A DNA stretch of 64,000 nucleotides, taken from Aquamicrobium lusatiense. Lineage in GTDB: Bacteria; Pseudomonadota; Alphaproteobacteria; Rhizobiales; Rhizobiaceae. The stretch is taken from contig NZ_JACHEU010000001.1 of assembly GCF_014201615.1 (NCBI RefSeq), forward strand, positions 701,631 through 765,630, read 5' to 3'. Numbering within the stretch: position 1 is the stretch's first letter; each line of letters opens with the position of its first letter. The notes beneath the pieces were generated by a model. The model made no database searches and was not told the origin of the DNA. It saw only the letters and a list, made by a program, of their open reading frames with translations. This document shows positions 8,740-62,669 of this stretch, in pieces. The translations under genes were made by a program, and so were the position numbers.

Positions 8740-8947
8740 CGGCTTGTTCCTTTTTATGGTCTGGTGGCGCTTGCCACATTGTTCGGCCTGCGTCCCGCTT
8801 CGGAAAGCCGGCATGCTGCCGGATCAGCGGGAATCGATCTGATATCGGCCCTTTAATGCCATCGCGCTGAAATTACCATTCGGGACTTTTTACCCGGGTG
8901 CTTCAGTCCCATGTTGCATGCATAGCCAGCGCAAATCGGTTTGCCAA

Positions 8948-36158: not shown

Positions 36159-36261
36159 CTATCTCTCCACGAACCCGCCCGCAGAGGGCGGCAAGCTGCC
36201 TGCCGCAGGGCTGAACCCGCCCCCGACCGCGCGATGCGGAAGAGCCTTTGTCCCTGCGGCC

Positions 36262-42174: not shown

Positions 42175-43236
42175 TCAGTTGGAGGAAATCCAGGCGTTCC
42201 AGCGTTCGAGCAGCGACGGATAGTTGTCGAGCCAGAAATTCAGGGCTTCCGTGTTGGAGGAGAAGAGATGCGTCTTCAGCCTGCCGACCGTCGGAACCAT
42301 CTCACGCTTTTCCGGTGTGAGCAGATCTTCCGCACCGCGTGCGGTAGGCCCGTAATTGGTCCTCTTCACGAACTCCGCCTGCCGCTCGTCATCGGCATAG
42401 AAGTTGAGGAAGCTGTAGGCCGCTTCCGCGTCCTTCGTTCCGGCCGGGACTGCCCAGTAGTCCATCGAATAGGTGCCCTTGTCCCAGATCGCATCGATCG
42501 GTCGGCCATCTTCCCTGGCGACGGCGAAGCGTCCGTTATAGGCGATGGACATGACGACGGAGCCGCCGGAAACCATGTCGATTGGCTGCGCGCCCGCTTC
42601 CCAGGTAACAAGCTCGCTCTTGATCTCGTCCAGCTTGCTGAATGCGAGATCCAGCCCTTCGGGCGTGCTCAGCGTCTTGTAGATGTCGTTGAGGTCGATG
42701 CCTGCCGCCATCAGCGCATATTCGAGATTGATCTTCGGTCCTTTGCGGATGCCACGCTTGCCGGGGAACTTTTCCAGATCGAAGAAGTCCGTCATCTTCT
42801 GTGGCGGTGTGGCGAACGCGCCGGTATTGTAGATGATGATGGAGCCGATGGTGACGACGCCGAGGCCGCATTCGCCTTTCGCTTCAGGGATAAGCTTGTC
42901 CGAATTCGGGATCTTCGACCAGTCGAGCTTCAGAAAAACACCTTCCTCGCAGCCGCGCAGCAATTCGGGACCTTCCGTCTGCACCACATCCCACTTGTAG
43001 GTGCCGGTGTCAGCCATGGCCTGAAAAGGAGCCCAGCCGCCAAGGTAGTTGTCTTCACGGATGGCGATGCCCGTTTCGGCAGTGAAGGGGGTGAACAGAA
43101 CCTCCTTCTGGTTTTCCTGATATGTGCCGCCCCATGAGGCGATGGTGAGTTGCTGCTGGGCCGCGGCCGGCATGGCCGAAACAGCGGTGACGCCGGCAAT
43201 GGCGGCTGTGAGCCAGCTTGCGAATGAGAACTTCAT
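42175..43236 (-). CDS. ABC transporter substrate-binding protein, PotD/PotF family
   Basis: A 353-residue periplasmic protein. The signal peptide ends near MPAAAQ (residue 26). The mature start LTIASWGGTYQENQKEVLFTPF is typical of family-1 extracellular proteins for polyamines, opines or mannopine. EFVKRTNYGPTARGAEDLL near the C-terminus is also characteristic. ATG 43236 follows AGGGAGGA with 5-6 bases spacing. A strong promoter lies at 43297-43325. The exact amine or opine ligand cannot be read. Confidence 0.9.
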   Translation of the reverse strand: MKFSFASWLTAAIAGVTAVSAMPAAAQQQLTIASWGGTYQENQKEVLFTPFTAETGIAIREDNYLGGWAPFQAMADTGTYKWDVVQTEGPELLRGCEEGVFLKLDWSKIPNSDKLIPEAKGECGLGVVTIGSIIIYNTGAFATPPQKMTDFFDLEKFPGKRGIRKGPKINLEYALMAAGIDLNDIYKTLSTPEGLDLAFSKLDEIKSELVTWEAGAQPIDMVSGGSVVMSIAYNGRFAVAREDGRPIDAIWDKGTYSMDYWAVPAGTKDAEAAYSFLNFYADDERQAEFVKRTNYGPTARGAEDLLTPEKREMVPTVGRLKTHLFSSNTEALNFWLDNYPSLLERWNAWISSN

Positions 43237-43296
43237 GACTTCCTCCCTGAGTGGGCGAACGTGGGCTTTTGCCATTTTTCTACCGTCCGGTTGATT

Positions 43297-43325
43297 TTAA
43301 TACTATTTGGAAAGTTATATTTCAA
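43297..43325 (-). promoter_or_regulatory. Promoter of the polyamine-type ABC operon with degenerate 24-bp operator
   Basis: On the minus strand TTGAAA (43320-43325), 17-base spacer, TATTAA (43297-43302). Within it, plus-strand TACTATTTGGAAAGTTAT (43301-43318) resembles the TACCATTTGGTAAGTTAA operator found at 48.0 and 55.6 kb, with three mismatches in 18. It overlaps the end of the thioesterase gene. Confidence 0.5.
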
Positions 43326-46557: not shown

Positions 46558-47862
46558 TCAGCGGACCCGTTTCCGGTCCAGCCAGTCCCCGAGCTTGTAG
46601 ACGCCGCCGACCAGCGGCAGGAACAGGCGCGGATCGCCTCTGTAGAGCGGTCGGGTCGGGAAAGAGGGGCGCTCGAAGGCACCTGCGCTCGCGGCGCCGA
46701 GGATGCGCTCGGCGACCTTGCGCCCGAGCATGGTCATCATCGCCACGCCGCTGCCATTGCAGCCAAGGCAATAGTGCAGGCCGTCCTGCTCCCCCGCATG
46801 GGGGAGGAAGTCGAAGGTGAAGGCGACGTTTCCGCACCAGGCATGGGAGACGCGGAAGTCTTTGAGCTGAGGAAAGATCTCGCTCATGAAGCGGTGCAGG
46901 ACGGGCGCAGCTTCTTGCGGTGCCTGCGGCGTAAATCTGGCGCGGCCTCCGAACAGCATCCGGCTGCCATCCGGCGACATGCGCGCGAACCGCAGCACCC
47001 GCCGCGAGTCCGTCAGGGTCCGTCCATTGGGCAGCAGCGAAGCCGCGAGATCGGGCGGAAGGGTCTCGGTGGCGATCATGTAGCTTGCCACGGGAACGAC
47101 GCGCCGGCGCAGCCACGGCGTCAGCGTACCCGTATAGCCGTTTGTGGCGATGATCACCTCGCGCGCCCTGACCTTGCCGCGGCTCGTGGAAAGCTCGAAA
47201 TGGCCTCGCGCTCCTTCGATCGTCTGAACCACAGCATCCGAATGCAGGCTGGCGCCGGCCGCTTCCGCCGCGCGCAGCAAGCCATGCAGATAGAGGGCCG
47301 GGTGCAGCTTTCCCGTCCGGTTGACGATCATGCCGCCGCTATAGGCGTCGGTTGCGATTTCCGTGCGCTGTTTTTCACGCGGCAGCATGGAGGCCTCCGA
47401 ACCGGCGAAGCTGTTCAGCCGGTCGAGCGTCCCGGCAAGCGCCGTATAGTGGGCCGGCACCGCTGCCGCGACGACGCGGCCGGTGCGCTCATAGTGGCAT
47501 TCGATGCGCTCTGCGGCGATGATCTCCTCGACGAGGTCGAGCGCCCGGAAGGCCTCGCCCATCAGGGTTGCCGCCTCTGCCTCGGAAAGGCCCTTCAGCC
47601 CTTTGCCCAGATAGTTGCCGCCGCTTACCAGTCCCGCATTGCGGCTGGAAGCACCGGTGCCGAAGTCTCCGGCTTCCAGAACCGCGACCCGCGTGCCGCC
47701 GCCTGCCAGGCGCAGGGCGGCCGAAAGGCCTGCATAGCCTCCGCCCACCACGGCGACATCCGTCGTTTCCGGCGGCGGGACGTTGCGCTTCACAGGTGGT
47801 GCTGCGTCCCACCAATAGGGGCGGGATATGAAATTCTCATGGAAGATCTGCTTGCTGCGCAT
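46558..47862 (-). CDS. FAD-dependent amine/amino-acid oxidase (PuuB/DAO family) 1
   Basis: A 434-residue flavoprotein of the DadA/PuuB group. The N-terminal RPYWWDAAPP leads into the FAD motif DVAVVGGGYAGLSAALRLA (about 35-53), then FGTGASSRNAGLVSG. C-terminal LGCNGSGVAMMTMLG is the second FAD contact. Such proteins oxidise secondary amines such as gamma-glutamylputrescine or N-methylated amino acids. It is divergent from the amino-acid importer operon, and the 24-bp operator lies 41 bp upstream of its start. Confidence 0.88.
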   Translation of the reverse strand: MRSKQIFHENFISRPYWWDAAPPVKRNVPPPETTDVAVVGGGYAGLSAALRLAGGGTRVAVLEAGDFGTGASSRNAGLVSGGNYLGKGLKGLSEAEAATLMGEAFRALDLVEEIIAAERIECHYERTGRVVAAAVPAHYTALAGTLDRLNSFAGSEASMLPREKQRTEIATDAYSGGMIVNRTGKLHPALYLHGLLRAAEAAGASLHSDAVVQTIEGARGHFELSTSRGKVRAREVIIATNGYTGTLTPWLRRRVVPVASYMIATETLPPDLAASLLPNGRTLTDSRRVLRFARMSPDGSRMLFGGRARFTPQAPQEAAPVLHRFMSEIFPQLKDFRVSHAWCGNVAFTFDFLPHAGEQDGLHYCLGCNGSGVAMMTMLGRKVAERILGAASAGAFERPSFPTRPLYRGDPRLFLPLVGGVYKLGDWLDRKRVR

Positions 47863-47902: not shown

Positions 47903-47926
47903 TTAAGCTACCATATGGTAATTTAA
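47903..47926. promoter_or_regulatory. 24-bp operator copy 1 (perfect dyad) upstream of oxidase 1
   Basis: TTAA-N2-TACCATATGGTA-N2-TTAA, with perfect symmetry in all specified bases. It lies 41 bp before the minus-strand oxidase gene. The core recurs at 48028-48039 and 55627-55638. Confidence 0.7.
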
Positions 47927-48004
47927 CAACAAGAAGGATTTCGCCGTGGATTCATAATTTTAGGCTAATATCGCATTATTTCGCCAAATATGTGAAGAAT
48001 CCGG

Positions 48005-48045
48005 TTGACAGGAAACCGCTTTTCACCAACCATTTGGTAAGTTAA
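48005..48045 (+). promoter_or_regulatory. Promoter and 24-bp operator copy 2 for the amino-acid importer operon
   Basis: TTGACA (48005-48010), 17-base spacer, AACCAT (48028-48033) as -10. The operator core AACCATTTGGTA (48028-48039) with AG and TTAA (48042-48045) overlaps the -10, a typical repressor position. Confidence 0.65.
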
Positions 48046-48089
48046 CTTGCTGCATCGGGCAGAGAGATGGCTGGTCGGGAGGGAGGCCC

Positions 48090-48229
48090 CAACATCGTAG
48101 CGGGCGATGTTGCCTGCACCCGGCATCAGCAGGAAGCTGATCGCCTGAAGCGCGATGCGCTTCGCCGGTCATGATAAAAAGCCGTCAAAAGCGGCAGGGG
48201 AAGCGTGCGGGATCTTCCGGCGAGCCGGA
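48090..48229 (+). promoter_or_regulatory. Structured leader with four perfect hairpins
   Basis: Consecutive perfect inverted repeats: CAACATCG/CGATGTTG (48090-48112), ATCAGC/GCTGAT (48125-48141), GAAGCGC/GCGCTTC (48147-48163) and TCCGG/CCGGA (48216-48229). They fill the leader between the promoter at 48.0 kb and the binding-protein start at 48280. No ribosome-site-backed ORF is present. A riboswitch or attenuator is possible; I recognise no known class. Confidence 0.5.
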
Positions 48230-48279
48230 CAGCCGTCGCACGTCCTGAACAGTCACAAAAACAACATGGGAGAATGGAC

Positions 48280-49032
48280 GTGTTTGCCAAAAAAGCCTTC
48301 ATTGGTGCGATCCTGGCTTCGCTTTTGCATGTCTGTGCATCGGCTGCAGAGCCTGTTTACAAAGTCGGTTCCACCACAACCGGAAATCCCTTTACCTTCC
48401 TCGACATCAGCACCAACAAGATCGATGGCATGATGGTCGATCTGATGAACACGATCGCCGAGGATCAGGGCATCAAGGTCGACATTCAGCCGGTGCCGTT
48501 CGAGGCGCTGATACCTTCCCTTCAGGGTGGCAAGATCGATATCATGTCGGCCGCCGTGACCATCACGCCGGTGCGCGCCGAGATCGTCGATTTCTCCGAT
48601 CCGATCTTTCCCTACACCGATGCCGTCATCGTGAAAAAGGATGATGATACGCCTTACACGAAGGCGGCCGATTTCGCCGGCAAGACCATTGGCGTCCAGG
48701 GTGGAACAGCGTTCTACGATTATCTGGAAAAGCTCGGCGGCTTCACCGAAATCAAGACCTATACCGCAATTGCCGACATCATGCGCGACGTGGAGCTGGG
48801 GCGCATCGCAGCCGGCTTTGCGGATGAACCGATCATGCGACACCGGCTGAGCAAGAACGATGCGGCGACCATCAAGCTCGTCCCGACCTATGAGCCTTTC
48901 TATGTCGGGCAGGTGGCGCTGGCCGTGAAGAAGGGCAATTCGGAACTCCTCGAAAAGCTGAATGCCGGGATCGCGAAGATCAAGGAAAGCGGCAAGCTTG
49001 AGGAGCTGCAGACCAAGTGGGGCCTGCGCTAG
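48280..49032 (+). CDS. Polar amino-acid ABC transporter substrate-binding protein (family 3)
   Basis: A 250-residue periplasmic binding protein. The signal peptide ends near ASAAEP (about residue 22). GKIDIMSAAVTITPVRAEIVDFSDP and the TKAADFAGKTIGVQGGTAFYDYL segment are typical of family 3 solute-binding proteins. The GTG at 48280 is chosen because GGGAGA lies 6 bases upstream; the ATG at 48274 directly abuts that site. A strong hairpin follows the stop. Its permease and ATPase are encoded at 51.8-53.3 kb in the same operon. Confidence 0.9.
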   Translation: MFAKKAFIGAILASLLHVCASAAEPVYKVGSTTTGNPFTFLDISTNKIDGMMVDLMNTIAEDQGIKVDIQPVPFEALIPSLQGGKIDIMSAAVTITPVRAEIVDFSDPIFPYTDAVIVKKDDDTPYTKAADFAGKTIGVQGGTAFYDYLEKLGGFTEIKTYTAIADIMRDVELGRIAAGFADEPIMRHRLSKNDAATIKLVPTYEPFYVGQVALAVKKGNSELLEKLNAGIAKIKESGKLEELQTKWGLR

Positions 49033-49040
49033 CACCTCCA

Positions 49041-49066
49041 GCCGCCGGACGCGCGCGTCTGGCGGC
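49041..49066 (+). terminator. Intercistronic hairpin after the binding-protein gene
   Basis: GCCGCCGGACGCG and CGCGTCTGGCGGC pair over 13 bp with one mismatch, 8 bp past the stop and with almost no loop beyond the central bases. Without a T-tract it is more likely an mRNA-stabilising element or partial terminator, favouring binding-protein expression. Confidence 0.55.
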
Positions 49067-49202
49067 ACCCGCACGTGGTCGGAGTTGGCAATGAGGGCTT
49101 TTCTTACAAGGCCCGTCAATTGACCCGGGCGCACCGCGGCAGGTGCAGGCAGTTCCGGCCCCGTGCTCCCCCTATGGAATGTGACAGCGCAAGAGGTTGA
49201 TC

Positions 49203-50210
49203 ATGAGAGTTCTGCAGCTTGGATTTGGGGCGGTGGGGCGCGAGAATGTGCGCCAGCTCCTCGGCAAGCACCATCAGGTCGTGGGCATTGTCGATACGCA
49301 GGACGTGATCGACGCCATCGATCTCGGCGAATTTGATTTCGCGGAGGCCCCCCCGCCGGTACTGGCTACCGATCTGGTGGCGTGTCTTTCTCAGACGAAG
49401 CCCGACGTCATTCTTCAGGCAACCACGTTCGATGCCGGCAACATGGTCGACGTGGTCCGGGCGGCAGCTTCGGCAGGCGCCAATCTGATCACCATCAACG
49501 GCATTGTCGACACCGAAAAGCTGCAGCCGCAGCTTCATGCCGAAATCGAGGCCCTTGCCGGTGCCGCCGGCATCCGGGTTCTGGGCGTTGGCGCCATTCC
49601 CGGCTTTTTCAGCGATGTCGTTCCGCTGATGCTGACGGGCTGCTGCGCGCAGGTGCGCTCGATCGATTTCAGGCGCCGGGCCGACTACAGCGTCTGGGGC
49701 CCGGACGTGATAAAGCGCTACGGCTTCGGGCTCACCCCGCAGGCGTTCGATCAGGCGAACCAGGCCGGCCAGATCACCCTGTTCAAGGCGCTGTGGCAGT
49801 CTGCCTGGTTCGTTGCCCGCGAACTGCGCTGGGCGGTGACCGACCAGCATGAGGAAAAGCGCCCCATCATCTCCACGCGCGACCGGCAGGGCCGTCATGT
49901 GCGGGTGACGGCCGGAACGGTCGGCGGTTTCAGCCACCGCGTCACGCTGATCTGCGAAGAGGAGCGTCGGCTGACGCTCGGGGTCGACGGCTATCTTGAT
50001 CCGTTCGGCCCGGAGGAAGAGCCGGGAATGGTGACGGAACTCAGCGGCAATTCCAGTATGCGGGTCGAGATCAGCGGCGATGTGCTGACTGGCGCCGGCT
50101 CGATGACCAGCAGTTCGGCGCGCATGGTCAACAGCATCGGGCCGCTCGCCGCCGCCGCGCCGGGGCTCAGGTCCACGGCCGATCTTCCGCTCGTCGCCTG
50201 CCGCGCCTGA
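49203..50210 (+). CDS. NAD(P)-dependent dehydrogenase resembling 2,4-diaminopentanoate dehydrogenase
   Basis: A 335-residue Rossmann-fold oxidoreductase of the DapB/diaminopentanoate-dehydrogenase-like amine dehydrogenase group. The motif LGFGAVG (6-12) binds the dinucleotide; VGAIPGFFSDVVPLML near 138 and the following GLTPQAFDQANQAGQITLF are typical of the group. Members oxidatively deaminate or reduce amine carbons. ATG 49203 has AGAGG 6 bases upstream. It precedes the CoA ligase gene by 40 bp. The substrate is unknown. Confidence 0.75.
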   Translation: MRVLQLGFGAVGRENVRQLLGKHHQVVGIVDTQDVIDAIDLGEFDFAEAPPPVLATDLVACLSQTKPDVILQATTFDAGNMVDVVRAAASAGANLITINGIVDTEKLQPQLHAEIEALAGAAGIRVLGVGAIPGFFSDVVPLMLTGCCAQVRSIDFRRRADYSVWGPDVIKRYGFGLTPQAFDQANQAGQITLFKALWQSAWFVARELRWAVTDQHEEKRPIISTRDRQGRHVRVTAGTVGGFSHRVTLICEEERRLTLGVDGYLDPFGPEEEPGMVTELSGNSSMRVEISGDVLTGAGSMTSSSARMVNSIGPLAAAAPGLRSTADLPLVACRA

Positions 50211-50250
50211 AGCGGCCTGCATCAGATTTTTCTCGTCGGGGTTTTTCAGA

Positions 50251-51840
50251 ATGGCCGATTATTACGGCTCGGAATGCAATGTGGTTCATGTCCTGCGCGA
50301 CCAGTTGTCGAAAGACGCGCAGCGCGTCTGGATCGTCACGGAAGAAAGCCGGTTTTCGGTCGCCGACATGGACAGGCGCTCGTCGGTGCTGGCGCGCGGC
50401 CTGTCCGGCCTTGGCGTCTCGGCGGGCGATACGGTTCTGGTGATGCTGCCGAACTGCATCGAATTTATCGATTGCTGGCTGGCGCTGGCGAAGCTGCGGG
50501 CCATTCAGGTGCCGGTGAACACGGCCTATTTCGGCGCGATGCTGGAGCATCTGGTGCGCGATTCCGGGGCCACCCGCATCATCGTCCATGAAAGCTTTCG
50601 CCACGCCGTGACCGAAGCGCTCGGCGCGGCCGGCTCGAAGCTGGACACGCTGATCGTGGTTGGCAAGGAAGCTTCTGGGCCGCCCGGCAACGCTCAGCTG
50701 ATCGACTACGCATCCTTGCTTCAGGAGGCGGATAGTTCGCCGCTGAAGGAAGAGCCCGCCCCGGCCTACAACAGTATCGCCTCGATCATGTACACCTCGG
50801 GCACCACCGGCGCCTCGAAAGGGGTGATGGTGACGCATGCGCACGCCTATCAGTATGCGGCGGGCGGCAATTCGCTCCAGCTCGGTCCGGGCGATGTCTA
50901 CTATGCGCCCCTGCCGCTGTTCCACATCGCCGGCCAGTGGGCGGTCATCTACAACTGCCTCATTCGCGAGGCGACGGCGGTTCTGAAGCCGAAGTTCAGC
51001 ATCACCGATTTCTGGTCGGACGTGGAGCGGTTTGGCGTGACCACCACTTTCATGCTCGGCGCCATGGGCAGCATGCTGTTCCGCACCACTCCCGGGGAAA
51101 AGCGGACATCGCTGAAGAAGGTGCTGATGTCGCCGCTCATCCCTGAATATGTTCAGTTCTGCGACAAGTTCGGGGTGCAGGTGTGCACCTCCTATGCCTC
51201 CACCGAGGTCAATGGAGTCATCGGCACCGGCTTGTCTCCGCCCAACGCCTCGACATGCGGCATGGTGCGGACGGACCGCTATGACGTGCGGCTGGTGGAT
51301 GAACTGGACGAGGAAGTACCGGTCGGCGAGATCGGCGAACTCGTGGTGCGGCCGAAGCTGCCGTGGATCGTGATGGTCGGGTACTGGAACAGGCCGGCTG
51401 AAACGCAGGCGGCGTGGCGCAATCTGTGGCTCCACAGCGGAGATCTCTTTCGGCGCGACGCCGACGGTTACTACTATTTCGTCGACCGGCTGAAGGATTC
51501 CATCCGCCGCCGCGGGGAGAATATCTCCTCGGTAGAGGTCGAGAACGCCATCAACGCCATTCCCGAGGTTCTGGAATCGGCCGTTGTCGCCGTGCCCTCC
51601 GAACTCACCGAGCAGGAGGTGCTTGCCTGCGTGGTCTTCCGCCCGGGGCAGCATCTGGCCATGGAAGAACTGCATGCGCGCATCGCAGCGCTGCTGCCGA
51701 AGTTCATGGTGCCCCGCTACCTCACCGTCATCGATGCCGTGCCCAAGACACCCACCGGCAAGCCGCAGAAATTCAGGCTGAAGGATGAGGTCCGGCGGGA
51801 ACAGCTTTGGGATTCGCTTGGCGAAAGGGGCAGGGGATGA
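50251..51840 (+). CDS. AMP-forming acyl-CoA ligase, CaiC-like
   Basis: A 529-residue adenylate-forming ligase resembling carnitine/crotonobetaine-CoA ligases. The P-loop is MYTSGTTGASKG (about 180-191), with LPLFHIAGQWAVIYN, the motif WLHSGDLFRRDADGYYYFVDR, KDSIRRRGENISS and the terminal PTGKPQKFRL with catalytic Lys. It activates a carboxylate, perhaps an amino or deaminated acid, to CoA. Its TGA overlaps the permease ATG (ATGA). Confidence 0.9.
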   Translation: MADYYGSECNVVHVLRDQLSKDAQRVWIVTEESRFSVADMDRRSSVLARGLSGLGVSAGDTVLVMLPNCIEFIDCWLALAKLRAIQVPVNTAYFGAMLEHLVRDSGATRIIVHESFRHAVTEALGAAGSKLDTLIVVGKEASGPPGNAQLIDYASLLQEADSSPLKEEPAPAYNSIASIMYTSGTTGASKGVMVTHAHAYQYAAGGNSLQLGPGDVYYAPLPLFHIAGQWAVIYNCLIREATAVLKPKFSITDFWSDVERFGVTTTFMLGAMGSMLFRTTPGEKRTSLKKVLMSPLIPEYVQFCDKFGVQVCTSYASTEVNGVIGTGLSPPNASTCGMVRTDRYDVRLVDELDEEVPVGEIGELVVRPKLPWIVMVGYWNRPAETQAAWRNLWLHSGDLFRRDADGYYYFVDRLKDSIRRRGENISSVEVENAINAIPEVLESAVVAVPSELTEQEVLACVVFRPGQHLAMEELHARIAALLPKFMVPRYLTVIDAVPKTPTGKPQKFRLKDEVRREQLWDSLGERGRG

Positions 51841-52490
51841 CGCAGTTCTTTGAAGATGCATGGCAGTTCATGCCGATCCTCATGCAGGGCGCCTATGTCA
51901 CCATTCAGGTGGCTTTCCTGTCGCTCGCCCTGTCATCGGTGCTGGGACTGGCGCTGGCGCTGATGCGCATGTCGAGCCTGCCCGTCCTATATGTGCCGGC
52001 GGTGACCATCATCACCGGTCTGCGCGGCATCCCGATCATCGTGCAGCTGATGTACATCTATTTCGTGCTGCCGGAGATCGGTATCGATCTCAGCGCCTTT
52101 ACGGCCAGCGTGATCGGCCTCGGTGTCGCCTACAGCGCTTATCACGCCGAGAATTTCCGGGCCGCCATCCTTGCGGTGGACAAGGGCCAGTATGAGGCGG
52201 CGATGAGCATCGGCATGGGCAAGGCGCAGCTGATGCGCCGGATCATCCTGCCGCAGGCGGTGCGTATCGTGCTGCCGCCCTATGGCAACATCACCATCAT
52301 GATGCTGAAGGACTCGTCGCTTGCCTCCACCATCACGGTTTCGGAGATCACCCGCGCCGGCCAGCTTATCGCTTCATCGACCTTCAAGAACATGACTGTC
52401 TTCACGCTGGTCGCCTTCATCTATCTGGTCATGAGCTTGCCGCTGACAGCGCTGAACGCATGGCTGGAACGTCGATTTGCAGCGAAGTGA
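51837..52490 (+). CDS. Polar amino-acid ABC transporter permease (HisM/GlnP family)
   Basis: A 217-residue permease with about five spans. The conserved EAA-type loop [20 protein letters not shown] is near residue 125, followed by [20 protein letters not shown]. Only one permease gene is present, implying a homodimer. The start ATG 51837 overlaps the ligase stop. Confidence 0.92.
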
Positions 52491-52503
52491 GGGGCGAAAC
52501 CGG

Positions 52504-53262
52504 ATGATCGAAGTCAAAGAGGTTTCAAAATGCTTCGGGGCGCTCAGGGTCCTGAAGTCCATGTCCTTCACCGTGGCGCGCGGCGAGGTGGTTTGCCTGA
52601 TCGGCCCGTCGGGCTCGGGGAAATCGACCATGCTGCGCTGCGTGAACGGGCTCGAACGCCACGATTCCGGCACCATCTCCATCGACGGCATGACCGTGGA
52701 CACGACATCGAAGACGATCGGCTCCGTGCGGGCCGAGGTCGGCATGGTGTTCCAGCGCTTCAACCTGTTCCCGCACATGACTGCGCTGGGCAATATCATT
52801 GAAGGCCCCGTGCAGGTGCGCAGGCGACCGAAGGCGGCGGCAAAGGAAGAAGCCATGGCCCTGCTGCACAAGGTAGGGTTGGCAGACAAGGCCGACAGCT
52901 ACCCCTCCCAGCTTTCCGGCGGGCAGCAGCAGCGCATTGCCATCGCACGCGCGCTGGCCATGAAGCCGAGGGCCATGCTGTTCGACGAGCCGACCAGCGC
53001 ACTCGACCCCGAAACGGTCGGCGACGTTCTGGTGGTCATGGAAGATCTGGCGCGTGAGGGCATGACCATGCTGGTGGTGACCCATGAGATGGGGTTTGCG
53101 GCCGAGGTGGCGAACCGCGTCCTGTTCCTCGATCGCGGCGAAATTCTGGAGGAAGGCCCGCCGTCCGAATTGCTCCGGCGGCCGCAGAACGAGCGTACCC
53201 GCGACTTCCTGCAACGCGTGCTCCATCCCGGAGAAAAGGCGGCGCGCTATGACAATGGCTGA
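52504..53262 (+). CDS. Polar amino-acid ABC transporter ATP-binding protein (GlnQ/HisP family)
   Basis: A 252-residue ATPase. Walker [10 protein letters not shown] (about 34-42), [20 protein letters not shown], the signature LSGGQQQR, Walker [15 protein letters not shown] and the H-loop [16 protein letters not shown] are all typical of GlnQ. It lies 13 bp after the permease gene and overlaps the next gene by 14 bp. Confidence 0.93.
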
Positions 53263-54538
53263 ACGCGAGCGCCTGTTCTGGTCTACCGGTTTCGATCCTC
53301 TCGAAAGCGATACGATCTCTCCCGGCGAGGCCTTCGATGCGGTGGTGGTGGGAGCCGGTTATGGCGGCCTGAGCGCTGCGCTCGAACTGTCGCGGCAGGG
53401 CATGCATGTGCTCGTCGTCGATGCGCGCCGCATCGGTGACGGAGCCTCCTCACGGGCAGCAGGCTCGCTCGCCAATGTTCCGAAGGCGCGGCTGCACGAA
53501 CTCGCTGGCAGCTACGGAGAGGAGACGGCGCAAGCCGTCTATCGCGAAGCCGTTCTGGCGCGCGCCCATACGGAGCGCATCATCGCCGACCATGCGATCG
53601 GCTGCGATCTTCGCCGCTGCACGCGCGTCATGGCCGCTCACAGCGAAAAGTCGATGCGGCGCCTGCAATCGGAATTTCCGGCCATGAAGACGCGCATTCC
53701 CGAGGCCCGGCTGCTTTCGGCACAGGAACTGCGCGGCTTCATCGGCAGCGACGTCTACCGTGGCGGCATGCTGGTTCCGGATTCGGCCACCGTCAATCCG
53801 GCCGCCTATCAGTACGGGCTTGCCCGGGCGGCGCGGGCCCAGGCGGCCAAGCTGTTGCAGAACACCCGAATGATCGGCCTGAAGCCGGTTGCCGGAGGTG
53901 TAGAGGTAGAGCTTGAATCTCTGGGCAGGGTGACGGCTGCCCATGTCGTTCTGGCGACGAATGCCGAGACCGGGCCCGACACGCCCCTGTCGGCGCAATT
54001 GGCAAGATCGATCGCGGCGGTTCCGGCCTTTTGCGTCGTCACCGAGAAGCTGCCGCCCGATCGTCTGGCAAAGGTGATCCGCGGGGCGGAGATCTTCGGC
54101 GATACGCGCAAGGTGCTGAACTACATGGCGCTGTCGCCCTGCGGAACCAGACTGGTCTACAGCGCCCGCGCCGGATTTCAGGAAGGCAGCACCGCCGACA
54201 AGGCGCGACGCATCATGAAAGCCTTTGAACGACGGTTTCCGCAAACGCGGGGCCTCGCCATGGACTTCTTCTGGTCCGGGCGCTTTGCCATCACGGCCGA
54301 TCTCATTCCCCATACGGGCAACAGCGACAGGGTGCACTGGATGATCGGCTGCTGCGGCACCGGCATCACCATGTCGAGCTATCTCGGCCACAAGATTGCG
54401 CGCCGCATTCTGGGCGCGGCCGATGCCGATACCGTGTTCCGGCTTCCGCTGCCCTCCATGCCGGCATGGCAGAGGCGACCGGCGCTGCTGGGCGCGGCCA
54501 TCCGTGTTTACCGCGTCTACGACCGCTACATGAAATAG
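53249..54538 (+). CDS. FAD-dependent amine/amino-acid oxidase (PuuB/DAO family) 2
   Basis: A 429-residue flavoprotein paralogous to oxidase 1 at 46.6-47.9 kb. The FAD motif [19 protein letters not shown] is at about 28-46, [20 protein letters not shown] follows, and [20 protein letters not shown] is the C-terminal FAD contact. The ATG at 53249 (MTMAERE) overlaps the ATPase gene; the second ATG, 6 bases later, is an alternative. Location inside the importer operon implies that its substrate is the imported compound or a derivative. Confidence 0.88.
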
Positions 54539-54588
54539 GCCGGAGGGCCGTGCGGCCATTGCAGCGGACCGCAAAGGGAGGTTTGAAC

Positions 54589-55524
54589 ATGCTTGTGATG
54601 GACGATGCGGCGATTGCCGCACTTGGCGTGCGTGCAATCGATCTGGCGGGGCCGGTGTCCCGCGCGCTGGCCGCCCATGCGCTGGGTGAAATGCTGGTCG
54701 AACCGAAGCGGATGCAGTTGGCCGCTTCCGGCGCCTATGCCATCGGCACGCATGGCCTGTGGCAGGAACAGGACCGCGCCTTCTTTCACAATCTGGTCGG
54801 TCTGGACCGCGAGCCGGTCAAAGGCGCACGCTCCACCTATCGCTCGGCGCAGGTGCTGTTCCGGTCCAGCGATGCGATGCCTCTGCTGACCATCCACGGC
54901 AACATGATGAGCAGCGTGCTGCCGGTGGTGATGACCCTGATCGCCGCGCAGAAATTCGCGCCGCAAAGCGTGGAGGCCGTTTCCTTCATCGGTGCGGGAT
55001 TGCAGGCAAGGCTCCATCTCGATGCGCTGACAGCGATGTTTCCGCTGAAGCGGATCTTTTCGCATTCGCGCTCGCGCAACTCGTCGCAGGCGCTGGCCGA
55101 CTATGCAGCCGCGCGCGGCATCCCGACGGTCATCTGCGATGATCCGCAGGAAGCGGTGCGCGGCGGCGACATCGTCGTTTCCTCCATCTCGGAATCCTTC
55201 GGTGTCGAGCCTTTCCTGGAGACCGGATGGCTGAAGCCCGATGCCCTGCTTTCCTCGGTCGACATGCTGCGGCCATGGCGAGGGGCGCGCGAGCTGCTGG
55301 TGATCGCCGATGACGCCCTTCAGGCCCGGCAGATGATCGAGGCCGGCAGGGTGCCCGGCGTTTTCCCGATCGATCATGAGCTGGGTGGGCTGCTGGCCGG
55401 AGAAAAGCCGTCGCGCAAGGGCGAACCGGCACCTGTGGTCCTGTTCCATCCGGGCTGTTGCGCGGGGCTCTTCGGCATGGCCTCGGCCTTGCATGAAATC
55501 CATGAATTATCTACCGAAAGGTAA
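54589..55524 (+). CDS. Ornithine cyclodeaminase/mu-crystallin family protein, divergent
   Basis: A 311-residue protein of the OCD/mu-crystallin NAD(P)-binding family. The dinucleotide motif VSFIGAGLQARLHLDAL is near 131-147, after EPKRMQLAASGAYAIGTHG. The SPGK-type segment with the catalytic Asp of true ornithine cyclodeaminases is replaced by SSVDMLRPWRGARELLVIADD. Relatives act as cyclodeaminases, ketimine reductases or alanine dehydrogenases, so the reaction is open. AAGGGAGG precedes ATG 54589 by 8 bases. Last gene of the operon. Confidence 0.82.
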   Translation: MLVMDDAAIAALGVRAIDLAGPVSRALAAHALGEMLVEPKRMQLAASGAYAIGTHGLWQEQDRAFFHNLVGLDREPVKGARSTYRSAQVLFRSSDAMPLLTIHGNMMSSVLPVVMTLIAAQKFAPQSVEAVSFIGAGLQARLHLDALTAMFPLKRIFSHSRSRNSSQALADYAAARGIPTVICDDPQEAVRGGDIVVSSISESFGVEPFLETGWLKPDALLSSVDMLRPWRGARELLVIADDALQARQMIEAGRVPGVFPIDHELGGLLAGEKPSRKGEPAPVVLFHPGCCAGLFGMASALHEIHELSTER

Positions 55525-55527
55525 TTT
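55512..55527. promoter_or_regulatory. Weak operator-like copy at the end of the OCD gene
   Basis: TACCGAAAGGTAATTT overlaps the stop codon. It matches the outer bases of the operator core (TACC-N4-GGTA) but not the CA/TG steps and lacks the flanking TTAA on the left. Confidence 0.3.
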
Positions 55528-55564
55528 GCGTGCTTGCAGAACTCTCGTTAAACCTCTGAAGACG

Positions 55565-55593
55565 GGAAAAATCCTTTAATTTGGAGTTTTTCC
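55565..55593 (+). terminator. Probable terminator of the importer operon
   Basis: GGAAAAATCC pairs with GGAGTTTTTCC (one bulged G) across an 8-base AT loop, 40 bp after the OCD stop. The stem's 3' arm carries the T-run, so it could end the plus-strand operon. Confidence 0.5.
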
Positions 55594-55603
55594 AAAAAGC
55601 TGG

Positions 55604-55644
55604 TTGATTGAGACGTTTGTTTATTCTACCATTTGGTAAGTTAA
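55604..55644 (+). promoter_or_regulatory. Promoter and 24-bp operator copy 3 for the enoyl-CoA hydratase operon
   Basis: TTGATT (55604-55609), 17-base spacer, TACCAT (55627-55632). The operator TTAT-N2-TACCATTTGGTA-N2-TTAA (55621-55644) overlaps the -10 exactly as copy 2 does, and it matches copy 2 in 11 of the 12 core bases and in the right flank. Confidence 0.65.
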
Positions 55645-55802: not shown

Positions 55803-56585
55803 ATGTCGGACAAGACCTACATCACGATGGAGCGCCGCGATCGCGTCGGCTATGTGACCCTCAACCGGCCGGACAAGCTGAACGCCATGCCCCGCAAGAT
55901 GTATCAGGAGATTTCGGCCGGCCTGCAGGAATATGATGCGGACGACGACATCTGGGTGATCGTGGTGCGTGGCGCGGGCGATCGCGCTTTCTCCGCCGGT
56001 GCGGATCTTGAGCTCCTGCATGGCTCGCTGACGACGGGCCCGTTTGAATGGAAGCCGTTCAAGGCAGACCGCTTCGACATGGGGCTGCAGGTGTCCAAGC
56101 CGGTGATCGCGGCCGTGCATGGCTTCTGTCTCGCCGGCGGCATGGAACTGGCGATGAGCTGCGACATCCGCATCGCCGCGGACAATGCGATGTTTGCCGC
56201 GCCGGAGGTGAAGTGGAGCGTGCTGCATGGCTTCGGTGCGCTGGTGATGCCACGCTCGGCGCCGCTTGGAGCGGTGATGGAGCTGCTGATGACCGGCCGC
56301 CGCTTCGATGCGCAGGAGGCCTATCGGCTTGGCATCGTCAATCGCGTGGTTCCGGTCGCCGATCTTCAGAAGACGGTCGACGATCTGGCCGACGAGATCT
56401 GCCGCAATGGGCCGCTGGCGGTGCGTATGACCAAGGAGATCGTTCTGCGCGGTCGCGAACTGCCGCTCAACGATGGCTTGCGCATCTATCGCGAGCTGAA
56501 CAAGCTCATCCATCTGACCGAGGATTCGACGGAAGGTGCCAAGGCCTGGGCGGAGCGCCGTCCGGCGCGTTACGCTGCCCGCTGA
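55803..56585 (+). CDS. Enoyl-CoA hydratase/isomerase (crotonase family)
   Basis: A 260-residue crotonase. The oxyanion-hole segments are SAGADLE (64-70) and GFCLAGGMELAMSCD (107-121). E115 and E135 (APEVKW) are at the two catalytic-Glu positions of hydratases. It hydrates a 2-enoyl-CoA. It is the first gene after operator copy 3 and heads a plus-strand group with a TetR regulator, an SDR and an APH-like kinase. Confidence 0.9.
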   Translation: MSDKTYITMERRDRVGYVTLNRPDKLNAMPRKMYQEISAGLQEYDADDDIWVIVVRGAGDRAFSAGADLELLHGSLTTGPFEWKPFKADRFDMGLQVSKPVIAAVHGFCLAGGMELAMSCDIRIAADNAMFAAPEVKWSVLHGFGALVMPRSAPLGAVMELLMTGRRFDAQEAYRLGIVNRVVPVADLQKTVDDLADEICRNGPLAVRMTKEIVLRGRELPLNDGLRIYRELNKLIHLTEDSTEGAKAWAERRPARYAAR

Positions 56586-56720: not shown

Positions 56721-57614
56721 ATGGCCACAAACGCCGGGAAGGCAGAGCAGCCGGCTCCAAAGCCAAGGCGTCGCCTCAGGGCTGAGGAACGATGGGAGCA
56801 GATTCTCACTGTCTCCGCCGAGCTTTTTTCGTCCAAGGGCTATCACGGGGCTTCGCTTGATGACATCGGCGAGCGGCTTGGCATCCAGAAGGCTGCGCTC
56901 TACCACTATGTCCGCAGCAAGGAGGACATACTGGTCGAGATCTACGACCGGATGTTGACCAAAGCCGAGGCCGAGGTGCTGCCGATCGCGGATGAGGCTT
57001 TCTCGCCCGATGAGCGGCTGCGTCGCATGGTTTCCAGCTATATCGGGCTGATGATCGAGCAGGCCGATATGTGGTCGCTGATCCACTTCCAGCAGAATGC
57101 GCTGCCTGCCGCCAACTATGAGGCAACGCTGCGCCGCAAACGGACCTTTGAAAAGAAATTCGAGGCGGTGGTGCGTGAAGGTCAGGCATCCGGCCTGTTC
57201 AAGCCGATGCCGACGCGCCTCATGGTGCTGTCGCTGTTCGGCATGTGCAACTATGTCCATCACTGGATAAAGTTCGCGCCTTTCCCTAAGGACGAAATCA
57301 CGGGAGTGGTCTGCGAGATTCTGGAGCGCGGTTTCATCGATGACGGCAGCAGGCGCGTCGGTGCCTGGCCCCGATATGTGGAAACCACCGACGCCATGGC
57401 CGAGACCGCTGCCCGCCTGGATGCGCTGAACGAGCAGGTCAGGGAATTGCAGGGCGCCTTCGAGCGCGACCGCCACAGGCTGATCGACGGCTTTGCCGGT
57501 TCCATGGCGAATGAAGGCGCTGGGCAGCAAAAGCCGGATAAGGCCGGCGCTGCTCCGCCGCCGGGACGGAAATCGTCTTCCACAAAATCTGAAAATAAAA
57601 AGCCGGCTAAGTAA
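56721..57614 (+). CDS. TetR-family regulator with C-terminal extension
   Basis: A regulator of about 297 residues from ATG 56721 (321 if the upstream codon at 56649 is used). The TetR HTH is near 22-70 (RWEQILTVSAELFSSKGYHG, split from DIGERLGIQKAALYHYVRSKEDIL). The ligand domain follows. After residue 210 there is a coiled-coil-like segment (ARLDALNEQVRELQGAF) and a Lys/Pro/Ser-rich disordered tail, unusual for TetR proteins of about 200 residues. It sits inside the beta-oxidation group and is a candidate reader of the 24-bp operator. Confidence 0.88.
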   Translation: MATNAGKAEQPAPKPRRRLRAEERWEQILTVSAELFSSKGYHGASLDDIGERLGIQKAALYHYVRSKEDILVEIYDRMLTKAEAEVLPIADEAFSPDERLRRMVSSYIGLMIEQADMWSLIHFQQNALPAANYEATLRRKRTFEKKFEAVVREGQASGLFKPMPTRLMVLSLFGMCNYVHHWIKFAPFPKDEITGVVCEILERGFIDDGSRRVGAWPRYVETTDAMAETAARLDALNEQVRELQGAFERDRHRLIDGFAGSMANEGAGQQKPDKAGAAPPPGRKSSSTKSENKKPAK

Positions 57615-57693: not shown

Positions 57694-58449
57694 ATGATTG
57701 ATCTGAATGGGAAAGTTGCCGTCATCACGGGGTCGAGCCGGGGCATCGGCAAGGCGATCGCAGAGGCGTATGCGAAGGCTGGAGCTTCCGTTGTGGTCTC
57801 CAGCCGCAAGGCCGATGCATGCGAGGAGGTGGCTGCCGCGCTGCGTGCTGAGGGGCATAAGGCGTTTGCCCATGCGTGTCATATCGGACGCAAGGAGGAT
57901 CTGCGGGGTCTGGCAGACGCCACCGAGGCGCATTTCGGACCCATCGACATTCTCGTCTGCAACGCGGCGGTCAATCCCGTCTACGGCACCATGGGCGAGC
58001 TGAGCGACGCGGCCTTCGACAAGATCATGGACGCCAATGTGAAGGGCACATTCTGGCTGTGCAACATGGTCATCCCGCAGATGGCGCAGCGCGGCGGCGG
58101 ATCTGTCATCCTGCTGTCGAGCATTGCCGGTTTGCGCGGCACCACCACTATCGGCTGCTACGGCATGTCAAAGGCGGCCGAGGCAGCTCTGGCGCGCAAT
58201 CTGGCGCTGGAATGGGGGCCGTCGAATGTCCGCGTCAACGCCATCGCGCCGGGGCTGATCGCCACCGATTTCGCCAGAGCGCTGATCGAGGATCCGGAGC
58301 GGCTGGCGCGGGTCGAGAGCCGCACGCCGCTGCGTCGCATCGGCCGCCCGGAAGAAATAGCCGGCGTCGCTCTGTTCCTCGCCTCCGACCTGTCATCCTA
58401 TGTCACGGGGCAGGTTCTGGTGGCTGACGGCGGCGAAATGGCGTCCTGA
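57694..58449 (+). CDS. Short-chain dehydrogenase/reductase (SDR)
   Basis: A 251-residue classical SDR. The cofactor motif TGSSRGIG is at 12-19, NAAV at 90-93, catalytic Ser at 142-143 and Y156-x3-K160. The R residues after the glycine motif (SSRKAD) suggest NADP preference. The terminal YVTGQVLVADGG is typical. It likely oxidises a hydroxyacyl-CoA or related alcohol in the same pathway. The kinase-like gene starts 3 bp after its stop. Confidence 0.93.
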   Translation: MIDLNGKVAVITGSSRGIGKAIAEAYAKAGASVVVSSRKADACEEVAAALRAEGHKAFAHACHIGRKEDLRGLADATEAHFGPIDILVCNAAVNPVYGTMGELSDAAFDKIMDANVKGTFWLCNMVIPQMAQRGGGSVILLSSIAGLRGTTTIGCYGMSKAAEAALARNLALEWGPSNVRVNAIAPGLIATDFARALIEDPERLARVESRTPLRRIGRPEEIAGVALFLASDLSSYVTGQVLVADGGEMAS

Positions 58450-58451
58450 CC

Positions 58452-59498
58452 ATGTCATTGCTTGTCGATCCACTACCCTCTCATCGCTTCGACGAGGCAG
58501 CGCTGCAGGACTATCTTGCCGCAAACCTCCCTGAAGCCTCCGGCCCGTTCCGTATTCTGCAATTTCAGGGTGGCCAGTCCAACCCGACCTTTCTGCTGGA
58601 AGGCGAGAGCTGGCGCATGGTGCTGCGCAAGAAGCCGTCCGGGACGCTGCTGAAATCGGCCCATCAGGTGGAGCGCGAGTACCGCGTCATCAGCGCCCTG
58701 CAAGGCTCGGCTGTGCCGGTGCCGCGCAGTTTCCTGCTGTGCGAGGATGAAGGGGTCATCGGCACGCCCTTCTATCTGATGGACTATGTCGAGGGTCGTG
58801 TCTTCGATCTCCCGCATATGCCCGACAGTTCACCACATGAGCGCACCGCCTGCTATCAGGCGATGATTTCTACCATGGCCGCCCTTCACAATGTCGACTG
58901 GGCGGCGGCGGGGCTGGCCGATTTCGGCCGGCCGGGCAATTACATCGTGCGCCAGCTCGACAGATGGTCGAAGCAATATCGCGATTCTGCCGCGGGTGAT
59001 GCCGATCCGCTGGTCGAGGACATCATCGTCTGGCTGGAGAAGAACCTGCCGGCGGAGGCGAGAACCACGCTGGCCCATGGCGATTTCCGGCTGGGCAATC
59101 TGGTGTTCGACCGGCACGAGCCGGTTGTGCGCGCCGTGCTCGACTGGGAGCTTTCGACGCTTGGCGATCCGCTGGGCGATCTTGCCTATTGCTGCCTGCC
59201 GTATCACCTGCCGGCAGATGGAGAAAATGCAAAGGGTCTGCTGGGGCTCGACCTGAAGGAACTTGGCATTCCCCGTGAGGAAGAATTGCTAGCCACATAT
59301 GGAGCGGCGACAGGGCGAAGTGGGATCAACGACTGGACCTTCTACCTCGTCTTTTCGCTGTTTCGGCTGATCGCCATTCTGCAGGGTGTCTATGCACGCG
59401 CGCTGCAGGGCAATGCCAGCTCGGCCAATGCCATCTCCGTTGCCGGCCGCCGCAAGGTGCTGGCCAGAACCGCTGCCGACATGATAGCCGGCAAATAA
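58452..59498 (+). CDS. APH-family phosphotransferase (ACAD10/11 N-terminal-like kinase)
   Basis: A 348-residue aminoglycoside-phosphotransferase-fold kinase. The Brenner motif HGDFRLGN has HGD at 209-211, the metal-binding DWE starts at D231, and the sequence continues STLGDPLGDLAY. The N-terminal QFQGGQSNPTFLL is the nucleotide loop. This family occurs with acyl-CoA dehydrogenases, and in mammalian ACAD10/11 the two domains are fused and degrade 4-hydroxy acids by phosphorylation. Here the kinase is convergent with two acyl-CoA dehydrogenase genes. Confidence 0.9.
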   Translation: MSLLVDPLPSHRFDEAALQDYLAANLPEASGPFRILQFQGGQSNPTFLLEGESWRMVLRKKPSGTLLKSAHQVEREYRVISALQGSAVPVPRSFLLCEDEGVIGTPFYLMDYVEGRVFDLPHMPDSSPHERTACYQAMISTMAALHNVDWAAAGLADFGRPGNYIVRQLDRWSKQYRDSAAGDADPLVEDIIVWLEKNLPAEARTTLAHGDFRLGNLVFDRHEPVVRAVLDWELSTLGDPLGDLAYCCLPYHLPADGENAKGLLGLDLKELGIPREEELLATYGAATGRSGINDWTFYLVFSLFRLIAILQGVYARALQGNASSANAISVAGRRKVLARTAADMIAGK

Positions 59499-59568: not shown

Positions 59569-60723
59569 TTATTGCGTCAGTTCACGCACCATGTTGCGGG
59601 CGATGACGATCTGCTGGATCTGCGTCGTGCCCTCATAGATGCGGAACAGGCGCACGTCGCGATAGAAGCGCTCGATGCCGTAGTCCGCGATATAGCCGGC
59701 GCCGCCATGCACCTGCACGGCCCGGTCAGCCACCCGCCCTACCATTTCCGAGGCGAACATCTTGCAGCAGGCCGCATCGGTGGAGACGTCCTGCCCGGCA
59801 TCCTTGCGGCGCGCCGTTTCCATCACCATGCACTCGGCGGCGTAGGACTCCGCACGGCTGTCGGCAAGCATCGCCTGCACGAGCTGGAATTCAGCGATCG
59901 GCTTGCCGAACTGACGCCGCTCGGCCGCATAGCGCAGGCTATCGTCGATAAGGCGTTTGGAGGCCCCCACGCATACCGCCGAAATGTGCAGGCGTCCGCG
60001 ATCGAGCACTTTCATGGCCGTTTTGAAGCCCTGTCCTTCCCTGCCGCCCAGAACGGCGTCGGCCGGAATGCGGCAATCCTCGAAGATGACGTCGCAGGTA
60101 TGAGCGCCCTTCTGGCCCATCTTGCGGTCGGGCGGGCCGAAGGACAGGCCGGGCGTTCCGGCCTCGACGAGAAAGGCGCTGACGCCGCGCGCATCCGTGC
60201 TGGCGGGATCGGTGCGGGCGAACACCGTGAACAGCCCGGCCACCGGCGCATTGGTGATGAAGCGCTTGGTGCCGTTCAGCACGTAGAAGTCGCCGTCGCG
60301 CCGTGCCGAGGTGCGCAGAGAGCCCGCGTCGGAACCGGCTTCCGGCTCGGTCAGCGCGAAGGATCCGACCAGTTCGCCGCTGGCCAGACGAGGCAGATAT
60401 TTGCGCTTCTGCTCCTCGGTGCCGTCGATGACGATGCCCTGCGAGCCGATGCCGTTGTTGGTGCCGATCAGCGAGCGGAAGGCTGGCGAGGTGCGCCCGA
60501 GCTCAAAGGCGACGCACACCTCCTCTTCCATCGACAGGCCGAGGCCGCCATGTTCTTCCGGGATCGACAGGCCAAACAGCCCCATCTCGCGCATGGCCGT
60601 GATGATTTCGGCCGGAATGGCATCATTCTCGGCTACCTGATGTTCGAGCGGCACCAGCCGCTCGCGCACGAAGCGCCTGATCGTTTCGAGCAGCTGGTCG
60701 AGTGTTTCGCTGTCCAGAGCCAT
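59569..60723 (-). CDS. Acyl-CoA dehydrogenase (short/medium-chain type)
   Basis: A 384-residue acyl-CoA dehydrogenase. FALTEPEAGSDAGSLRTSA, FYVLNGTKRFITNAPVA, the VQVHGGAGYIADYGIERFYRD segment and the C-terminal EGTTQIQQIVIARNM are all typical; E of the YEGT motif is the catalytic base in this family. GGGAG lies 6 bases before ATG 60723. It lies 30 bp after the larger dehydrogenase gene in a minus-strand beta-oxidation operon. Confidence 0.94.
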   Translation of the reverse strand: MALDSETLDQLLETIRRFVRERLVPLEHQVAENDAIPAEIITAMREMGLFGLSIPEEHGGLGLSMEEEVCVAFELGRTSPAFRSLIGTNNGIGSQGIVIDGTEEQKRKYLPRLASGELVGSFALTEPEAGSDAGSLRTSARRDGDFYVLNGTKRFITNAPVAGLFTVFARTDPASTDARGVSAFLVEAGTPGLSFGPPDRKMGQKGAHTCDVIFEDCRIPADAVLGGREGQGFKTAMKVLDRGRLHISAVCVGASKRLIDDSLRYAAERRQFGKPIAEFQLVQAMLADSRAESYAAECMVMETARRKDAGQDVSTDAACCKMFASEMVGRVADRAVQVHGGAGYIADYGIERFYRDVRLFRIYEGTTQIQQIVIARNMVRELTQ

Positions 60724-60753
60724 CGGGGTCTCCCGTGAGAAGTGTTTTCGGGG

Positions 60754-62568: not shown

Positions 62569-62669
62569 GAAGGGTCTCGCTGGCGCACCTTGGCGCGAGT
62601 TCGGGTTCCGGGTTGTCGCGTGGGGAGAAGGGGCAGGCCGTGAAGCCTGCCCACATGATTAGCCGGCTG

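Follow-up and report, generated by a model that had tools for sequence, protein, structure and literature searches.

A 24-bp inverted repeat as the probable operator of a TetR-family regulator in a catabolic gene cluster of Aquamicrobium lusatiense

Introduction

Which regulator reads a 24-bp inverted repeat that recurs at the promoters of a catabolic gene cluster of Aquamicrobium lusatiense, and which genes does it tie together? The repeat lies in a 64,000-nucleotide stretch of the genome (contig NZ_JACHEU010000001.1, positions 701,631 to 765,630), here called the window, to which all coordinates without a prefix refer. A first-pass annotation, made from the letters alone, had proposed that one repressor acting at a shared operator coordinates an amine oxidase gene, an amino-acid importer operon, a beta-oxidation operon and a polyamine-type ABC operon, and it had named a TetR protein encoded at 56721 as the nearest candidate. 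Here, we followed the repeat through the window, the whole genome and its relatives, and we conclude that the TetR protein encoded at 56721-57614 probably uses the 24-bp dyad as its operator.

Results

The dyad at 47903-47926 (TTAAGCTACCATATGGTAATTTAA) proved to be perfect, as first described, with no mismatches to TTAANNTACCATATGGTANNTTAA over the 20 defined positions, and the near-copies at 48022-48045 (3 mismatches) and 55621-55644 (2 mismatches) were recovered with the same coordinates and sequences. In 100 shuffles of the window, the expected number of full dyads with up to 3 mismatches was 0.00. A relaxed core, TACCNNNNGGTANNTTA, with up to 2 mismatches gave 12 matches in the window compared with 1.23 expected. 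These included the three main sites, the degenerate site near 43301, weaker places at 8869 and 43281, and a weak site at 55506-55529, which is an addition to the earlier set and lies 115 bp upstream of the 55621 site. The sites are paired in two regions, one between the divergent oxidase and importer genes and the other formed by 55506 with 55621. As the 43295 and 55506 sites carry 6 and 7 mismatches, respectively, over the 20 positions, their assignment draws on position and conservation and not on score.

At two promoters, the 12-bp core of the dyad begins 17 bases after a −35 hexamer, as had been noted: TTGACA at 48005-48010 is followed by the core at 48028 and TTGATT at 55604-55609 by the core at 55627. 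TTGACA and TTGAT are kept in three genomes. The hexamers found at the −10 position under these two sites, AACCAT (48022) and TACCAT (55621), are poor compared with TATAAT. The degenerate relative noted at the ABC promoter also found support, since on the minus strand TTGAAA and TATTAA stand 17 bases apart, and the site at 43295-43318 occupies the whole of this spacer and extends into TATTAA. A sequence resembling it (6 mismatches) stands at the homologous promoter of one relative, a Mesorhizobium metagenome-assembled genome (MAG; L039:3883-3906).

A further operator-like site was identified beyond the window, upstream of fadJ (Table 1). The likely fadJ promoter reads TTGACG-17-TATAGA, and in the own genome the site lies 94 bp upstream of its likely −35 element. 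The distance is 106 bp in Aquamicrobium defluvii and the Mesorhizobium MAG, where the site recurs in degenerate form (6 mismatches). On the other side of this site, the own genome carries a GMC oxidoreductase gene, which was not seen beside fadJ in L015 or L031. Coverage of the −10 position at two promoters, and of the spacer and −10 element at a third, corresponds to the usual positions of a repressor; this makes it unlikely that the TetR protein binds the sites as an activator, or in both roles, at some promoters, although the distance of the fadJ site from the likely −35 element and that of the 55506 site from the main operator would suit such a role.

The fadJ promoter carries other dyads as well. 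A second, unrelated one, GCGGAATTTAATTCCGC, lies 4 bp upstream of the likely −35 element (L009:12037-12053; G000:C1:767667-767683), and two relatives have GCAGAATTAAATTCTGC in its place, with matching changes on both arms. We take this dyad to resemble IclR-type operators; in the window, it occurs at chance level, with 2 copies at 3 mismatches compared with 2.57 expected. A match to our operator at L015:10175 (copy L028:1404) overlaps this other fadJ dyad and was left out of the operator count. A third dyad, CGGTTC...GAACCG, covers the −10 region of fadJ (L009:12000-12020) and is largely kept in two relatives, so that the promoter may answer to several regulators.

The first-pass annotation had called for a scan of the full genome and related genomes, and had held that many copies outside promoters would argue against a regulator site. 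In the own genome (4.39 Mb in 13 contigs), the half pattern with up to 2 mismatches gave 8 matches, which fell on the three main sites and the fadJ place, apart from one stray on a different contig. The consensus pattern with up to 3 mismatches, a limit above which the 48022 and 55506 sites fall, gave 6 matches at five places, compared with 1 control match, and all 6 lay within 57 kb (C1:710499 to C1:767780). Two of the five places were outside the source list of the pattern, namely the already known ABC operon site and window positions 8869-8891. The latter, a weak match (3 mismatches) distant from the other sites, lies between a small open reading frame (ORF) and an AraC-like ORF, so named from reading its translation. 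Good copies were found almost solely in the cluster and were not spread over the genome.

A scan with the TetR alignment, taking one genome per species, yielded four loci, three of them with close relatives: A. defluvii (L015; 83 % TetR identity), the MAG PRO1 (L016; 80 %) and Mesorhizobium MAG bin 2 (L017; 84 %). The last two keep the order oxidase, importer operon, hydratase, TetR, SDR and phosphotransferase; FtsK was left out of the gene set compared. Loss of the dyad from orthologous loci with retained gene order, which had been named as grounds for doubt, was not seen; within 6 of 20 mismatches, each of these two loci has a site at every one of the four expected places and none elsewhere. 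In the oxidase/importer region aligned over three genomes, 36 of 48 site columns were identical compared with 83 of 294 outside (Fisher p 9e-10). In the hydratase region, aligned in the same way, 18 of 24 columns were identical in each site compared with 76 of 249 outside, the Fisher test here covering the 55621 site only. On the oxidase side, the Mesorhizobium MAG contig was free of sites (6 mismatches) and of cluster genes (E value of 1e-10) over its first 20 kb. It is scarcely credible that the repeats are chance AT-rich promoter sequence with no dedicated regulator: the sites do lie in AT-rich promoters and the loose half pattern has control matches, but the full dyad has the zero expectation given above, and three genomes keep its halves at homologous positions.

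Past the phosphotransferase gene, PRO1 has a block with distant ABC relatives (25-50 %) and another TetR_C_24 regulator, and no site within 6 of 20 mismatches was found there. This second regulator (L016:13035-13607) stands beside its own polyamine-type ABC and CoA (coenzyme A) ligase block, as if each such ABC/ligase module brought its own TetR. The A. defluvii locus is without the genes of window 37-56 kb; thiolase matches are in pieces and one acyl-CoA dehydrogenase was not seen. The import block and the operators are gone together, while the TetR gene and the degenerate fadJ site stay. At L015:2740-3250 of this genome (strain DSM 11603), approximately 500 bp of other sequence separate a cut IclR36 gene from a cut hydratase gene, and the TetR gene comes next after the latter. 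An insert at the junction looked transposase-like by eye; Pfam gave no family, and we make no claim for it. Beyond the locus, the A. defluvii genome was searched for IclR35, fadJ and the half pattern.

Among more distant relatives, a TetR protein with 38 % identity is encoded beside a hydratase gene in genome G394, with CCATATGG upstream; the sequence upstream of the G394 hydratase gene is CCGACCATATGGACGG. We considered whether this core is conserved in distant TetR relatives and dropped the idea, as genome G480, which encodes a 69 % relative of the G394 TetR, has CCGACTAGTCAGGCGG. At the Nocardioides locus (L018), no such site was found. In another family of the order, a 38 % TetR relative lies after a hydratase gene facing a CoA ligase gene (43 % identity to that of the window; L024:4953-8285, also L026), which suggests an old TetR-hydratase-ligase association that may use a different operator.

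We then compared the distribution of sites and regulators in 99 sampled genomes of the genus, the own genome included. A TetR relative at an E value of 1e-40 was present in only two of them, the own genome and G308. With up to 1 mismatch, the site occurred at 3 places in the own genome, at 2 places in G308 (3 matches) and at 1 place each in G331 and G341, and was absent from the remaining 95; there were no control matches. More than one site place was thus found only in the two genomes with the TetR gene. Operators need not adjoin the gene of their regulator, and the sites might belong to an unlinked regulator widespread in the genus; with at most one site place in 97 of the 99 genomes, we regard this as very unlikely.

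The two IclR genes of the window lie beside the ABC operon with its degenerate site and travel with that operon in the Mesorhizobium MAG, so one or both of their products might bind the dyads. PRO1 speaks against this; it is taken as G862, which is 94 % complete, because size and coordinates agree. It keeps four sites and the TetR gene, but a search at an E value of 1e-15 found no IclR relative there, no IclR35 match included, whereas the same search caught IclR36 at approximately 1e-43 in two other genomes. The sites are therefore not confined to genomes with a relative of these IclR genes at that threshold, and of the regulators in the cluster, TetR alone was seen in all three site-bearing genomes. 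As the fadJ promoter, moreover, carries a different and presumably IclR-like dyad, binding of our dyads by the IclR proteins is highly improbable. Thus, the TetR protein at 56721, first named as the nearest candidate, is also the best one.

The cluster as such is rare. A CoA ligase relative at an E value of 1e-150 was found in 2 of 394 sampled genomes of the family, the own genome and G862. TetR matches numbered 1 of 297 and 2 of 397 (the own genome and the distant G394) in family and order samples that were sparse, scored only 6-7 candidates per genome and showed neither G308 nor PRO1. A plasmid search with the TetR protein returned 22 records, all below 60 % identity and none covering 80 % of the query.

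The protein itself contains a TetR_N domain (PF00440; 8.7e-14) and a TetR_C_24 domain (PF17932; 6.2e-20), which place it in the TetR family. Its start is that of the first-pass annotation and agrees with the homologues. It scored below the curated NCBIfam cut-offs for FadR of Bacillus (47.7 of 200 bits), FasR (49.6 of 330 bits) and SACE_7040 (58.3 of 250 bits). In the predicted model (mean predicted local distance difference test [pLDDT] 74, predicted template modelling score [pTM] 0.59), the nearest solved folds are PfmR, a Thermobifida TetR (3dcf) and AibR. Judged by fold and domain resemblance only, the protein is probably of an acyl-CoA-responsive type. The model further places a helix of approximately 42 residues (222-263) after the TetR domain. 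In 16 aligned sequences, the own included, heptad positions M226, L233, L243 and L254 show no variation and T229, L236, F247 and D250 hardly any, a pattern that suggests a coiled coil. It is a tentative and rather doubtful idea that this predicted coiled coil joins two DNA-bound TetR dimers, so that operator pairs 106-119 bp apart would be bridged into short loops and TetR would repress by looping. The helical phasing of the pairs (119, 118, 115, 115, 106 and 117 bp) was not significant, with values of approximately 0.08 in the Rayleigh test and 0.086 in the simulation, and the six values are not independent.

The features of the cluster, with presumed operon limits, are collected in Table 1. 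The proposed beta-oxidation operon at 55621 held up with respect to its site, but the unit is really an enoyl-CoA hydratase-TetR-SDR-phosphotransferase operon; a fuller set of beta-oxidation genes makes up the convergent fadJ-thiolase-two acyl-CoA dehydrogenases operon, and the site of that operon is the one outside the window. The importer permease and ATPase were named from reading their translations. Solved relatives of the binding proteins are of the glutamine/arginine and gamma-aminobutyric acid (GABA)/polyamine/agropine types, matches too broad for a substrate to be named. The DAO oxidase had no solved relative at an E value of 1e-15, and further searches for solved relatives of cluster proteins named no substrate.

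Table 1. Operator copies and genes of the cluster (window coordinates unless prefixed)
Feature	Position	Strand	Remarks
Operator copy 1, perfect dyad (20/20)	47903..47926	none	40 bp before the start of the divergent DAO-family FAD (flavin adenine dinucleotide) oxidase gene; kept in L017 and L016
Operator copy 2	48022..48045	none	Covers the −10 position of the amino-acid importer operon; TTGACA lies 17 bases before the core
Operator copy 3, weak (7/20 mismatches)	55506..55529	none	Lies across the stop codon that ends the ornithine cyclodeaminase-like gene; L017 and L016 have a site at the corresponding position
Operator copy 4	55621..55644	none	Covers the −10 position of the enoyl-CoA hydratase-TetR operon; TTGATT lies 17 bases before the core
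Degenerate operator copy (6/20 mismatches)	43295..43318	none	Spacer and −10 of the polyamine-type ABC operon
Operator-like site outside the window (3 mismatches)	G000:C1:767757-767780 = L009:12127-12150		2.1 kb past the window end, upstream of fadJ
FAD-dependent oxidase, DAO family	46558..47862	−	Best NCBIfam match L-pipecolate oxidase, far below cut-off
Importer operon	48205..55524	+	Amino-acid binding protein, DAP_DH_C dehydrogenase, acyl-CoA ligase, permease, ATPase, second DAO oxidase, ornithine cyclodeaminase-like protein
Enoyl-CoA hydratase	55803..56585	+	
TetR regulator, proposed operator binder	56721..57614	+	TetR_N, TetR_C_24, long predicted C-terminal helix
SDR dehydrogenase and APH-type phosphotransferase	57694..59498	+	Assigned to the hydratase-TetR operon by shared direction
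Two acyl-CoA dehydrogenases and thiolase	59569..63851	−	Distal part of the likely fadJ operon; operator-like site outside the window
Polyamine-type substrate-binding protein, ABC operon gene 1	42175..43275	−	
Two IclR regulators	35322..37053 (35322-36158, 36262-37053)	−	Considered as binders, judged unlikely

Discussion

Our best reading of these data is that the cluster is governed by a local, autoregulated TetR repressor. The computed part comprises the sites and where they lie, how specific they are in the own genome and how far they are conserved, the co-occurrence with TetR and the near-exclusion of IclR; we infer the operon limits, binding, repression, a CoA-thioester inducer and the nature of the substrate. 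The first proposal of one repressor coordinating several metabolic units is thereby upheld as far as a single shared regulator site is concerned, whereas the repressor role stays presumptive. According to this scheme, a TetR dimer would sit on the dyad and block the FAD oxidase, importer/ligase and hydratase-TetR promoters and, more weakly, that of the polyamine-type ABC operon; the dyad would also mark the upstream region of the fadJ operon. An imported amine or amino acid would be oxidised and then ligated to CoA, and the resulting thioester may bind the C-terminal domain of TetR and release it from DNA, so that uptake and degradation would rise together. The substrate of the pathway would be one nitrogen-containing compound. 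Because the TetR gene lies behind one of the proposed operators, the loop would be self-limiting.

Several observations weigh against this interpretation. The position of the fadJ site is not explained by simple blocking of the promoter. A strict consensus promoter scan listed neither the 48022 nor the 55621 promoter, with their poor −10 hexamers, and in the hydratase region the bases directly preceding the start codon are conserved to the same degree as the site. The half pattern is loose: in the own genome, its 8 matches stood against 4 for the reversed control, so that this search alone is not decisive, and among the G308, G394 and L015-L017 genomes the controls at least equalled the matches except in PRO1 and, by one match, in G308/L017. 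A. defluvii keeps a TetR with 83 % identity, yet its locus shows only the degenerate fadJ site, and its genome gave 5 half-pattern matches compared with 5 for the control, that is, no excess. Since G480 is without the core of G394, sharing of the core does not extend to the wider family. Furthermore, G308 is the genome of the L017 locus and hence not an extra witness, and since TetR and the sites travel with the whole cluster, their co-occurrence is a stronger argument against an unlinked housekeeping regulator than against another regulator borne by the cluster.

The analysis assigns an operator and a candidate regulator to a rare catabolic island, and it brings five transcription units together in what is probably a single pathway for a nitrogen-containing acid, which narrows the search for the substrate. 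Paired sites together with a long predicted tail helix also offer a concrete case for asking whether TetR proteins loop DNA.

Among known systems, PfmR of Thermus thermophilus is linked to fatty-acid genes. The TetR of the window shares its fold (PDB 3vpr) over approximately 180 residues, with a template modelling (TM) score of 0.87 by target length, but the identity is 28 % and the window protein is approximately 100 residues longer, with the predicted C-terminal helix of approximately 42 residues. AibR of Myxococcus xanthus, whose structure was determined with isovaleryl-CoA and operator DNA (PDB 5k7z), also has the TetR fold; its identity is 24 % and its solved chain comprises 185 residues compared with 297 here. 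DarR is a TetR protein that binds DNA as a dimer of dimers with inter-dimer contacts (PMC10636190); it belongs to the same structural neighbourhood as the window TetR but differs in its cyclic nucleotide ligands and shares 21-25 % identity. Literature searches with the core strings returned no title on a bacterial regulator and none pairing Aquamicrobium with TetR and beta-oxidation; on DNA looping by TetR proteins with a coiled coil, they brought up work on nucleoid proteins only. The circuit type is familiar, whereas this particular TetR switch and its operator seem undescribed in the literature searched.

The familiar type is represented by MbdR of Azoarcus sp. CIB, which is described as a TetR repressor of several promoters in one catabolic cluster, its own included, with palindromes over promoter elements, and is released by a CoA thioester of the pathway, 3-methylbenzoyl-CoA (PMC4424350). 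Its sequence matches that of the window TetR only weakly (PDB 4uds; E value of 9.6e-9). The operators differ too, with ATACN10GTAT reported for MbdR (PMC4424350) and TTACC-N4-GGTAA here; the 17 aligned sites give TTAAcCTACCATTTGGTAAGTTAa, which by eye is not of the MbdR type, and as these sites were chosen both by score and by where they stand in homologous promoters, their bit total is flattering. What the two systems would share, with binding presumed for the window TetR, is the control of several promoters of one cluster, that of the regulator gene among them, through palindromes placed over promoter elements and, probably, release by a CoA thioester of the pathway.

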